Below are positions 2,430 through 9,594 of a DNA stretch of 64,000 nucleotides, piece after piece. The notes under the pieces were generated by a model. The model was not told the DNA's origin. It made no database searches and worked only from the letters and a program-made list of their open reading frames with translations. Position 1 is the first letter of the stretch. Every line of letters begins with the position of its first letter. The position numbers were made by a program, and so were the translations under genes. Location: the NCBI RefSeq assembly GCF_017355785.1, contig NZ_JAFEWE010000003.1, positions 248,001 through 312,000 of the forward strand, given 5' to 3'. This DNA is from Desertivirga arenae (GTDB lineage Bacteria; Bacteroidota; Bacteroidia; Sphingobacteriales; Sphingobacteriaceae).

Positions 2430-3326
2430 TTAAAAACTGTTCTTCATGCTATTGTTGAGTGTTTTAGCACTCCAGTAGCCGCTTGCGATAATTCTTCTGA
2501 TCGTAAATAGCGGATCATTTTCATCCCTTTTTGTAGACAATATATAGGCAGCTTTAAATCCTCGCTTTTTCAATTCAGGTATTGCCTCTTTATTCCAAAG
2601 GCCAAACGGAAATGCAAAGTAATCCATTTTCTTGCCTGTGATCTCTTCTAAGCGTTTAGTTGGCTTCTCAATCTGTTGTACCCAATCTTCTGCCTGATAC
2701 TTCTTCACGTTCTTATGATCGTACGTATGACTTCCAATCGTATTTCCCTCATCTGAAAGCTGTTTGATCTGTTCACTATCCATGTATTTAAACCTTCCCC
2801 TGCGACCAATAGAAACAGTCATGATAAAATATACACCCTTGAATTTATACTTCTTAAGCTCCTCATTTCCAATTGTAAACTGGTCAAGATCTGTGTCATC
2901 AAAAGTGATCATAACGGGCTTGGAAGGAAGCGCGTCTCCGTAAACCAGGTAATTATATAGTTGCTCAGGTAATACTGTATGGTATCCACTATCGGCAAGC
3001 ATTTTCATATGCGACTTGAAGGTGGCAACAGGAGTTATATAGTCTTTTGCTGTTTGAGAATCAGAACTTCTCCAATCACGGATCTGGTGATAGCAAAGAA
3101 TAGGAACTTGTTTACGGGCAAGAATAGTTTTTGCATCCGCGGCAACCCTTTCCTTCGAAGCACCAGCTTGTTGTTGTTCTGAACCTGAGCCTTCTGTAGT
3201 AGCAGTTGCAGGGTTTTCAGTTGCAGCTGCGGTAGCCTGACTTGATTTTTTACTTTCGCCACAAGAAGCGATTAAAATAGTAGCAGGAAGAGCAAGGGAT
3301 AAAATACGTTTGGTCAATTGTTTCAT
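2430..3326 (-). CDS. Polysaccharide deacetylase family lipoprotein (NodB domain)
   Basis: This is an exported lipoprotein. After a charged start, a hydrophobic stretch ends in the lipobox LIAS-C with Cys22. A Ser/Thr/Ala/Gln-rich linker (about residues 25-60) precedes the catalytic NodB homology domain. Motif 1 is TFDD at 141-144, although the usual second Asp is followed by Thr rather than Gly, and motif 2 is SHTYDH at 199-204, carrying the two metal-binding His. A further motif (FAFPFG) lies near residue 235. The family removes acetyl groups from N-acetylated polysaccharides such as peptidoglycan or poly-N-acetylglucosamine. The substrate is unknown here. The low-complexity linker suggests the domain is held away from the membrane. 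Downstream it shares the hairpin at 2371-2420. Confidence 0.88.
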   Translation of the reverse strand: MKQLTKRILSLALPATILIASCGESKKSSQATAAATENPATATTEGSGSEQQQAGASKERVAADAKTILARKQVPILCYHQIRDWRSSDSQTAKDYITPVATFKSHMKMLADSGYHTVLPEQLYNYLVYGDALPSKPVMITFDDTDLDQFTIGNEELKKYKFKGVYFIMTVSIGRRGRFKYMDSEQIKQLSDEGNTIGSHTYDHKNVKKYQAEDWVQQIEKPTKRLEEITGKKMDYFAFPFGLWNKEAIPELKKRGFKAAYILSTKRDENDPLFTIRRIIASGYWSAKTLNNSMKNSF

Positions 3327-6654: not shown

Positions 6655-7377
6655 TTAGAGCAGCCCTACTATTAACTGAGCTACAACAATAGCAATACCG
6701 AAACTTAATAAGGTGCCTATAAGGATATACTCTGTAAATTTAAGATCGTTCCCCTCCTTCAAATCGCCAAAACGAAAGATTGACTTAGCAGCAATTAGAA
6801 AACCGACAGCTTCATAGTGTCCGGTGGTAATAAATAGAAAAGTAAGCAATCGCTCAAGGATACCTATATATTTCCCGGCACTTTCAAGTGATCCTATACC
6901 TGTTAAGTTACTGGCGGGTAAAGGTGCGTTAGGTGTCCATTTTGCAATTAGGGTTCTGATAATAATGGAAGTAGGATAGGTAAGGAAAAGCAGCGCAAGT
7001 GCAAGGATCCAGAAAGAATCAGACCTGAAATAGTTTAAATTAATTGTTGGAGCCTTGTAACTATACCAAACTAAAACAAGTGTAAGGATATGTAAGATTT
7101 GATCAGCAAAGAACCATCTCCTCTTTGTTTCGGGCTTTTGAAAGCTTAGCTTAATACCATCAACAATACCGTGAATGAACATGATCAGCAAAGCTGGCAC
7201 AAGGAAATCCAGGTCCCACACCAATAAAAGAGTAAGGATGCCGTGTATGAGAGTATGATAGTAAAGCTTTGGAGATCTCAACTTCCTGGCCTCCTTTTCA
7301 ATTACCCACCTGTCTGGCTGTAAAAAGAAGTCACCGATAAAATGAGCGATAAGGAGTTTAATCAGAAGCAGGTTCAT
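6655..7377 (-). CDS. DUF3307 family membrane protein
   Basis: A 240-residue integral membrane protein with about seven hydrophobic segments. It begins with the DUF3307 signature LLIAHFIGDFFLQPDRW and has the family histidine patch LYYHTLIHGILT near residues 39-50. The biochemical function of DUF3307 is unknown. The gene overlaps the end of satD by 20 nt, which implies one operon and coupled translation. The pairing of a SatD-type protein with a DUF3307 membrane protein suggests a cytosolic sensor/regulator and a membrane partner, but that is inference. No terminator is visible between this gene and rtcB. Confidence 0.82.
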   Translation of the reverse strand: MNLLLIKLLIAHFIGDFFLQPDRWVIEKEARKLRSPKLYYHTLIHGILTLLLVWDLDFLVPALLIMFIHGIVDGIKLSFQKPETKRRWFFADQILHILTLVLVWYSYKAPTINLNYFRSDSFWILALALLFLTYPTSIIIRTLIAKWTPNAPLPASNLTGIGSLESAGKYIGILERLLTFLFITTGHYEAVGFLIAAKSIFRFGDLKEGNDLKFTEYILIGTLLSFGIAIVVAQLIVGLL

Positions 7378-7981
7378 TGGCAGTGAATGTGTCTTTTATT
7401 TTTTTCTTGTATAAAGAATTCAGCTCCAATATCTCAAAAAAATTGGCGCGCGACAAGGCTTCACTAACAGATGATTGAGTTTTATTAATAAGTTCGGCTA
7501 ATTCTGATTGTGATGCACCTTGATTTTCCAGTGCCAGCTTAACCATTTCTGCTGCGGCCGGTGTCCATTTGTCTATTGCGATTAGCGCTAGCTTCAAAGC
7601 GATATTGAATTCATAGTCAAAATCAGCAAAAGCTGACTTAACGGAAAGACTTACTTTCTCTTTTTTTAACAACTCAAACTTCTCACCTGAAAAAATGAAA
7701 GCCTCCCCATTCGATTCACTTAGTTTTTCTGCAGTATATCCCTCCCTTCCAATGCCAATGGCTATACGTACATCAATATTTTTTAGGGTTTTAATACAGG
7801 CTTTGAGGTACACAGCTTTTAAAAATGCTTCCTCCACTTCTGTTTTTAACTGAAAGCTGTCTCCTCTGAATATTTCCCAATTTTCTTTACTTCCCAGTCC
7901 CTCTTTTAATACAGAAAGCCACTCCTCAGTTGAAGTGGCTTTCCTTGAATTTATAATATCACCAGTAAGTATAGCTACCAT
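7358..7981 (-). CDS. satD: SatD family protein with C-terminal helix-turn-helix
   Basis: The 207-residue protein starts with the SatD signature VAILTGDIINSRK. The N-terminal 130 residues contain FRGDSFQL (Asp41) and VRIAIGIG followed by SNGEAFIFSGEKFE. The order of these motifs (Asp8, Asp41, then a RIAIG strand and GEA helix) recalls a class III nucleotidyl-cyclase fold. That is my inference, not an established activity. Residues 155-180 (GASQSELAELINKTQSSVSE) form a helix-turn-helix, so DNA binding is likely. SatD was named from the acid-tolerance locus of Streptococcus mutans and has no settled function. The ATG sits 5 bp from the first of three tandem palindromes, so autoregulation is the simplest model. 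Confidence 0.82.
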   Translation of the reverse strand: MVAILTGDIINSRKATSTEEWLSVLKEGLGSKENWEIFRGDSFQLKTEVEEAFLKAVYLKACIKTLKNIDVRIAIGIGREGYTAEKLSESNGEAFIFSGEKFELLKKEKVSLSVKSAFADFDYEFNIALKLALIAIDKWTPAAAEMVKLALENQGASQSELAELINKTQSSVSEALSRANFFEILELNSLYKKKIKDTFTANEPASD

Positions 7982-7986
7982 TATAC

Positions 7987-8067
7987 AATTATCGGTAAAA
8001 CAACCGATAATTCAAATTATCGGCTAATTAACCGATATTTATAATTATCGGCTAATTAGCCGATAAT
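7987..8067. promoter_or_regulatory. Three tandem 28-bp-spaced palindromic operators upstream of satD
   Basis: Three copies of TATCGG-N8-CCGATA lie between the satD start and the guaB stop. Copy 1 (7987-8012) has perfect 10-bp arms AATTATCGGT/ACCGATAATT. Copy 2 (8018-8037) has the core GGCTAATTAACC. Copy 3 (8044-8067) is a perfect 24-bp palindrome with the core GGCTAATTAGCC. Centres fall at 7999.5, 8027.5 and 8055.5, exactly 28 bp apart. They occupy the place of the satD promoter. A dimeric helix-turn-helix regulator, possibly SatD itself, is the likely ligand. Confidence 0.85.
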
Positions 8068-8068
8068 A

Positions 8069-9594
<1,526 letters not shown>

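Follow-up and report, generated by a model that had tools for sequence, protein, structure and literature searches.

Autorepressors that act on tandem operators are known, and some prophages are placed under the control of the LexA protein of their host. The name SatD goes back to Streptococcus mutans, where it stands for "secretion and acid tolerance". Panoptes couples the enzyme mCpol (OptS) with a 2TM-beta protein (OptE), and loss of the enzyme's product unleashes the toxic membrane partner, as given in the available parts of the two reports (PMC12657230; PMC12657218). On the same parts, the SatD-DUF3307 pair described here shares with Panoptes a palm-fold protein (in SatD a predicted fold), two catalytic-type aspartates and an operon with a membrane protein. 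The two differ in the partner, which is 2TM-beta in Panoptes and DUF3307 beside SatD; a helix-turn-helix (HTH) or an operator array is not described in the available parts of either report, and SatD is named in neither main text (PMC12657230; PMC12657218). When the partner was compared with the Panoptes effectors (2TM-beta/S-2TM-beta, CARF, SAVED), it matched DUF3307 only. Because the partner domain differs, SatD-DUF3307 is not assigned to Panoptes, which by analogy may serve as its nearest working model. With autorepressors on tandem operators the locus would share self-regulation through repeated dyads, and with LexA-controlled prophages the presence of phage genes under a host repressor. 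Unlike those systems, it combines a constant pitch of 28-29 bp with half-sites that drift across phyla, and it has phage-borne arrays that match a host palm-HTH protein. In PADLOC-DB 2.0.0, a release of 2023 that is older than the Panoptes papers and may lack a model of that system, only the HTH of SatD found matches (PDC-M64) and DUF3307 found none.

The window, i.e. the whole stretch of 64,000 nucleotides from Desertivirga arenae that was analysed, carries on its minus strand, in this order, guaB (8069-9538, upstream of the array), the array, a satD-like gene of 207 aa (7358..7981), the gene of a DUF3307 membrane protein (6655..7377), which begins 20 nt before satD ends, and then, at a greater distance, rtcB. 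The satD-like product consists of a predicted cyclase-like palm domain at the N-terminus (residues ~1-119; 7625..7981, minus strand), where D8 and D41 are the putative metal-binding aspartates, and a C-terminal HTH whose recognition helix comprises residues 169-178 (7448..7477, minus strand). The sole Pfam match of the DUF3307 protein is PF11750 (E 1.3e-30); the structure model obtained for it (pLDDT 68.6) is of low confidence and too weak to be used in a fold search, and a profile search against solved structures gave a best E of only 0.12.

Three dyads with an exact TATCGG-N8-CCGATA core, none assigned to a strand, occupy 7990..8009 (dyad 1, nearest satD), 8018..8037 (dyad 2) and 8046..8065 (dyad 3). 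Their centres at 7999.5, 8027.5 and 8055.5 bear out the original prediction of three palindromes at a 28-bp pitch, and its account of the single copies also stands: a perfect 24-bp palindrome (8044-8067) encloses dyad 3, dyad 1 has perfect 10-bp arms (7987-7996 and 8003-8012, by eye), and dyad 2 is slightly degenerate outside its core, with 2 mismatched pairs in 24 bp (by eye). The gap from the start of satD to the stop of guaB spans 7982-8068, so the array fills it, as had been claimed. A repeat search reported the three dyads as a 28-nt unit present three times. Half-sites alternate at 14-bp steps (6+8+6+8), and CCGATA-N8-TATCGG is therefore likewise a dyad; in a 29-bp array elsewhere (L014, by eye) the linker is 9 while the N8 within TATCGG-N8-CCGATA is retained, which makes TATCGG-N8-CCGATA the rigid unit. 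When as many as 3 mismatches are allowed, the window holds 24 matches against a shuffle mean of 14.8 and a largest value of 25, a weak enrichment. In the whole genome (6,187,183 bases, 43 contigs) the exact matches are these three dyads only. Allowing up to 1 mismatch brings the total to 14, the three exact ones counted, and the reversed pattern reaches 18; the genome thus gives no hint of additional sites. A regulon within the organism's own genome was rejected, there being no exact site beyond the array. We put at about 85% the probability that the array serves SatD as its operator, on which a lattice of dimers would repress satD and DUF3307 until a nucleotide cue at the palm domain released it.

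Homologues of the window protein were found in 78/151 family genomes, and a profile built from 40 homologues had matches in 116/395 phylum genomes; some of these matches were fetched, as 30 loci and 80 more regions. A first set comprised 170 loci with an identified satD, the duplicates L101, L104 and L106 having been removed. Paired dyads were scored in the 250 nt upstream of satD with the pitch left free between 20 and 45 bp. The best of these 26 pitches was 28 or 29 bp in 147/170 loci, and 113/170 satD regions beat every one of 60 dinucleotide shuffles. As a control, 2502 other 250-nt windows were taken from the same loci, and there a pitch of 28 or 29 bp was best in 180. A score of at least 25 was reached by 123/170 satD regions against 12/2502 controls, and one of at least 27 by 85/170 against 2/2502. 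Adding 23 loci (193 in total) and dropping 28 at 85% identity gave a non-redundant set of 165, in which the best pitch was 28 or 29 bp in 140. Among the 124 arrays that passed a score of 24 at a pitch of 28 or 29 bp, three dyads are commonest (68/124); the number per array ranges from 2 to 7 and the last centre lies 12-105 nt from the ATG. Palindromes had been expected upstream of satD orthologues; they were looked for, and they were found before most of the satD-DUF3307 operons examined in Bacteroidota, as well as in several Proteobacteria. The array threshold of the co-variation test was missed by 40 of the 165 non-redundant loci, and at 37 loci DUF3307 is present with the array below threshold; none of nine satD loci of family f18 (L166, L167, L169, L171-L175, L177) beats its shuffles. 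Tandem TATCGG arrays occur in 30/151 genomes of the family, against 0 for the reversed control. When the 395 phylum genomes were scanned with the gap free from 1 to 30, TATCGG tandems with a gap of 8 or 9 were found in three, all of the window's family, and four other genomes had other gaps. Six very distant homologues accompanied by DUF3307 (L188, L195, L196, L201, L203, L204) also have 28-29 bp arrays, with half-sites of the GTTTCA or TTGCA type.

The partner of satD is nearly constant. DUF3307 lies directly downstream in 160/165 non-redundant loci, a contig end accounting for two of the five exceptions, and the two genes form an operon. The gene on the other side of the array is not constant: guaB is upstream of satD in just 6/193 loci (the window, four close relatives and the distant L176), a count that rests on flanks with a median of 2020 nt and a minimum of 179. 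The array is linked to satD and not to guaB, whose neighbourhood is incidental, and an element linked to guaB was rejected on the same count. In L176 (G206), a distant satD with guaB upstream as in the window, the arrangement may be chance or an old association. The neighbourhood also bears on the reading that the palindromes are RNA hairpins, an attenuator or the terminator of guaB. They follow guaB directly and are foldable, and over all units G-T mismatches exceed A-C mismatches by 113 to 74. Leaving out the unit nearest the ATG, however, lowers this excess to 75 against 57, hairpins need no exact pitch, 187/193 loci have no guaB in the available flank, and the half-sites co-vary with a protein helix; hairpins are accordingly an extremely unlikely account.

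Class III cyclases bear the Asn and the Arg of the transition state on helix 4. For the N-terminal half of SatD, a cyclase/GGDEF/Cas10 palm fold is predicted: fold modelling suggests the palm fold together with the two putative metal-binding aspartates of class III nucleotide cyclases, and both aspartates are 99% conserved. The likenesses extend to class III nucleotide cyclases (Ma1120, Rv1625c), GGDEF, Cas10 and GTP cyclohydrolase III, and Y-family polymerases score nearly as high as these palm-fold matches (8.4). At the Asn/Arg position of the class III enzymes the SatD helix reads GEAFxxSG (compared by eye with the class III motif), and in the 40-homologue alignment an Arg follows only in some clades (by eye). 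The SatD family profile PF16264 matches 29 of the 40 homologues at E up to 0.1 and at that limit does not match the window protein; it gave 0 matches in the D. arenae genome, as it did in 14 controls. The domain architecture would thus tie a predicted nucleotide-cyclase-like domain directly to DNA binding. The original prediction had known of no operator of this type described for a SatD protein, and no SatD operator was found in the literature searched, most subscription papers lying outside it; DUF3307 turned up there in a single paper; a passage on the HTH was looked for in PMC2447327 and none was found.

Which protein occupies the array was approached through co-variation across 125 arrays, those left once the 40 loci below threshold had been set aside. 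With N-terminal distance controlled, operator distance has a partial correlation of 0.26 with the recognition helix and of 0.19 with the whole HTH (partial Mantel, 0/500 permutations as high), and the N-terminal half retains a smaller one of 0.13-0.16. Helix and operator both track phylogeny, and the partial correlations are modest. The four columns of the whole protein that best account for operator differences once N-terminal distance is allowed for (172, 173, 174 and 177, i.e. Q169, S170, S171 and E174 in the window) all sit in the recognition helix. Among N-terminally unlike proteins, the nearest helix predicts the operator slightly better than does the nearest N-terminal half (out of 8, operator similarity at the first threshold averaged 5.55 for the helix and 5.31 for the N-terminal half; over four thresholds p was 0.0004-0.0053). 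A table of helix triplets against half-sites was drawn up for the 57/125 arrays with a clear TATC core. In it, TATCG goes with QSS (24/24), QST (6/6) and QNS (3/3), TATCTG with QGR (5/5) and QSN (2/2), and TATCA with QSQ (9/9), and two triplets go with more than one base, QSA (4 T, 1 G) and QGN (1 A, 1 T); the 68 arrays outside the table include 4 QSS, 7 QSQ, 6 QSA, 1 QSN and 1 QNS. Within the family, TATCTG arrays with a gap of 8 or 9 occur in four genomes only, always at satD and always with a QGR helix. A fifth genome with a QGR helix lacks an exact TATCTG array, and the three QSS genomes of the same genus carry exact TATCGG arrays. Five genomes yielded two fetched homologues each. Three have two arrays of the same architecture with different half-sites (L127/L187, L129/L188, L143/L189), the half-sites of L149/L157 are alike, and in the genome of L174/L190 neither homologue has an array.

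The site thus adjoins the gene of its putative regulator and co-varies with the residues of that protein predicted to contact DNA. Since the half-sites change with its recognition helix, it is very likely SatD itself that binds the array and regulates its own gene from there; the autoregulation proposed in the original prediction gains support from this co-variation and from the differing half-sites of paralogues. Another, more global regulator acting on the array would account for the one genome of the family (G102) in which a TATCGG array is present (L224, G102:C26:145500-151500) and satD was not detected, being perhaps lost or missed. The same co-variation and paralogue differences leave such a regulator no easy explanation, and against it stand also the arrays found at satD mostly without guaB and the lack of other exact sites in the window's own genome; it is very improbable. 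With SatD as the binder, the code is testable and concerns a widespread protein pair without assigned function.

We infer binding, dimers, cooperativity, repression and the nucleotide signal as follows. SatD dimers would occupy each TATCGG-N8-CCGATA dyad through the C-terminal HTH, and across two to about seven dyads spaced by 28-29 bp, neighbouring dimers would touch around the helix (28 bp are 2.67 turns, and three units of 84 bp make eight turns). The lattice would cover the satD promoter or abut it, repressing satD and the DUF3307 membrane gene, and the palm domain, in which both metal aspartates are kept, would sense or make a nucleotide that loosens it. The promoter bears on the sign of the regulation. 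The Bacteroidota -7 motif is TAnnTTTG, and an operator whose downstream arm covers this motif, or that abuts a start codon, has a position typical of repression. The motif occurs within 120 nt upstream in 55/125 loci, where shuffles give 14.1 and at most 23. By eye there is no exact TAnnTTTG in the window's own satD gap, where the promoter position is a candidate at most. It is improbable that SatD binds and activates the operon, or forms a nucleoprotein lattice with a non-repressive role. The wide spread of copy number (2-7 dyads) and of distance to the ATG (12-105 nt) would suit such a role, as would 7 phage-array hits in which the -7 motif lies 31-70 nt past the last dyad's centre. At satD loci, by contrast, 17/75 of the -7 motifs start 6-11 nt past the last dyad's centre, which places them on its downstream arm, and the array of the window abuts the start codon. 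SatD is therefore probably a repressor of its own operon.

The pair is also present outside Bacteroidota. A tblastn search of plasmids found satD-DUF3307 in Vibrio, Salinivibrio, Pseudoalteromonas, Agrobacterium, E. coli and Klebsiella, the E. coli and Klebsiella plasmids being 3.8-4.4 kb. Pitch 28 is best in 7/8 plasmid loci, which include near-duplicates (two Pseudoalteromonas, two Salinivibrio), and 6 beat all 200 mononucleotide shuffles; the E. coli array is weak, with 2/200 shuffles scoring as high, and the array scan found none at the Fusobacterium satD locus (L210). Half-sites outside the phylum differ strongly (TTAGCC, GTAACC, ACCCA) at the same pitch, so the geometry is retained as the sequence drifts, and this fixed spacing of 28-29 bp under a drifting sequence amounts to a natural experiment in protein-DNA co-evolution. 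The E. coli plasmid pEC34A (NC_019077.1, L211; 3770 bp) has five annotated genes, including the satD-like gene and DUF3307, and six Klebsiella plasmids of 3.8-4.4 kb carry an identical or near-identical satD-like gene; megablast of the pEC34A operon against 5,426 complete E. coli genomes found no match. On the Agrobacterium plasmid pAt (L212; NZ_CP011248.1 32419-37697), satD and a short DUF3307-like gene have DUF4365, antitoxin and nucleotidyltransferase/HEPN genes as neighbours, which are defence-like surroundings. For S. pyogenes, satD is reported to have been essential in every transposon screen so far but to be present in 178/249 genomes only (PMC11323703). A gene that is essential yet accessory fits one needed only beside a harmful partner, and the pattern might fit a need to restrain DUF3307.

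Arrays of the same kind are found among phage genes. The family scan returned eight TATCGG tandem arrays away from satD, in seven genomes, and five of the eight lie among phage genes (PHROG matches), the other three being those of L218, L219 and L224. In L222 the array precedes a terminase large-subunit gene by 23 nt, and a major head protein is encoded further on (the terminase scan was done on the viral contig L255, which has the same array and gene), and in L223 a phrog_421 ORF follows 2 nt further on. Others are near a phage ATPase (L221), a DnaC-like loader (L220), and a replication initiation gene with a terminase small subunit (L217). Six of the seven genomes with arrays away from satD have a QSS-type satD, and such arrays occur in 6/27 QSS genomes against 1/124 others (p 1.2e-4, uncorrected for kinship). 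In IMG/VR, TATCGG-N8-CCGATA-N8/9-TATCGG was found in 49 contigs (L225-L273, e.g. L255:5392-5439 and L242:3190-3223), a few of which look like chance hits by eye (e.g. the related L225, L232, L247 and L253), against 1 for the reversed control. Over gaps of 1-30 there were 81 contigs, 37 at gap 8, 12 at gap 9 and 0 to 4 at each other gap. Two of the contigs, L255 and L271, apparently represent the prophages L222 and L221, and to that extent the host and viral sets overlap. Distinct arrays lie outside an ORF of 100 aa in 32/37 cases, against 5/27 hits at other gaps (p 7e-8); for TATCTG in viral contigs (80 of 109 stretches) the figures are 6/8 and 5/37. Twenty genes near arrays were scanned, each 2-148 nt from its array, and those named are a DNA methyltransferase, HNH endonuclease, terminase, primase, RNA ligase, spanin-like protein, endolysin, PAPS reductase and cold shock protein. 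An integrase match was found in 12 of the 36 records searched (of 49), 8 over the cut-off. Near phage arrays the -7 motif shows hardly any enrichment: 33 arrays gave 7 hits, a rate of 0.21 per array against a background of 0.12, and these are too few to use. A whole-record search of the 49 viral records, some perhaps fragments, found no full SatD and one weak HTH-only match (E 7e-4), two queries of a phage collection for SatD gave no match, and viral contigs at large hold four distant SatD homologues.

By analogy with prophages under LexA, phages may use the host SatD as a ready-made switch, or may titrate it. A broader interpretation is offered tentatively, namely that SatD-DUF3307 is a Panoptes-like guard or a toxin-antitoxin operon, whose cyclase-fold HTH protein would read a nucleotide signal and restrain a harmful membrane protein through a 28-bp lattice, and that phages and prophages carry operators of the host SatD for control or titration; if so, their arrays would put phage genes under a host sensor or draw SatD away. 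Clues to such a phage-host conflict are the phage-borne operators, the essential but accessory satD of S. pyogenes and the five-gene plasmid with the pair. The predicted palm domain, the DUF3307 partner, the incidental guaB and the phage arrays all go beyond the earlier reading of this locus. In L218 and L219, two species of one genus, a two-dyad array at about position 3000 of each overlaps, by eye, the 3' end of a small minus-strand gene.
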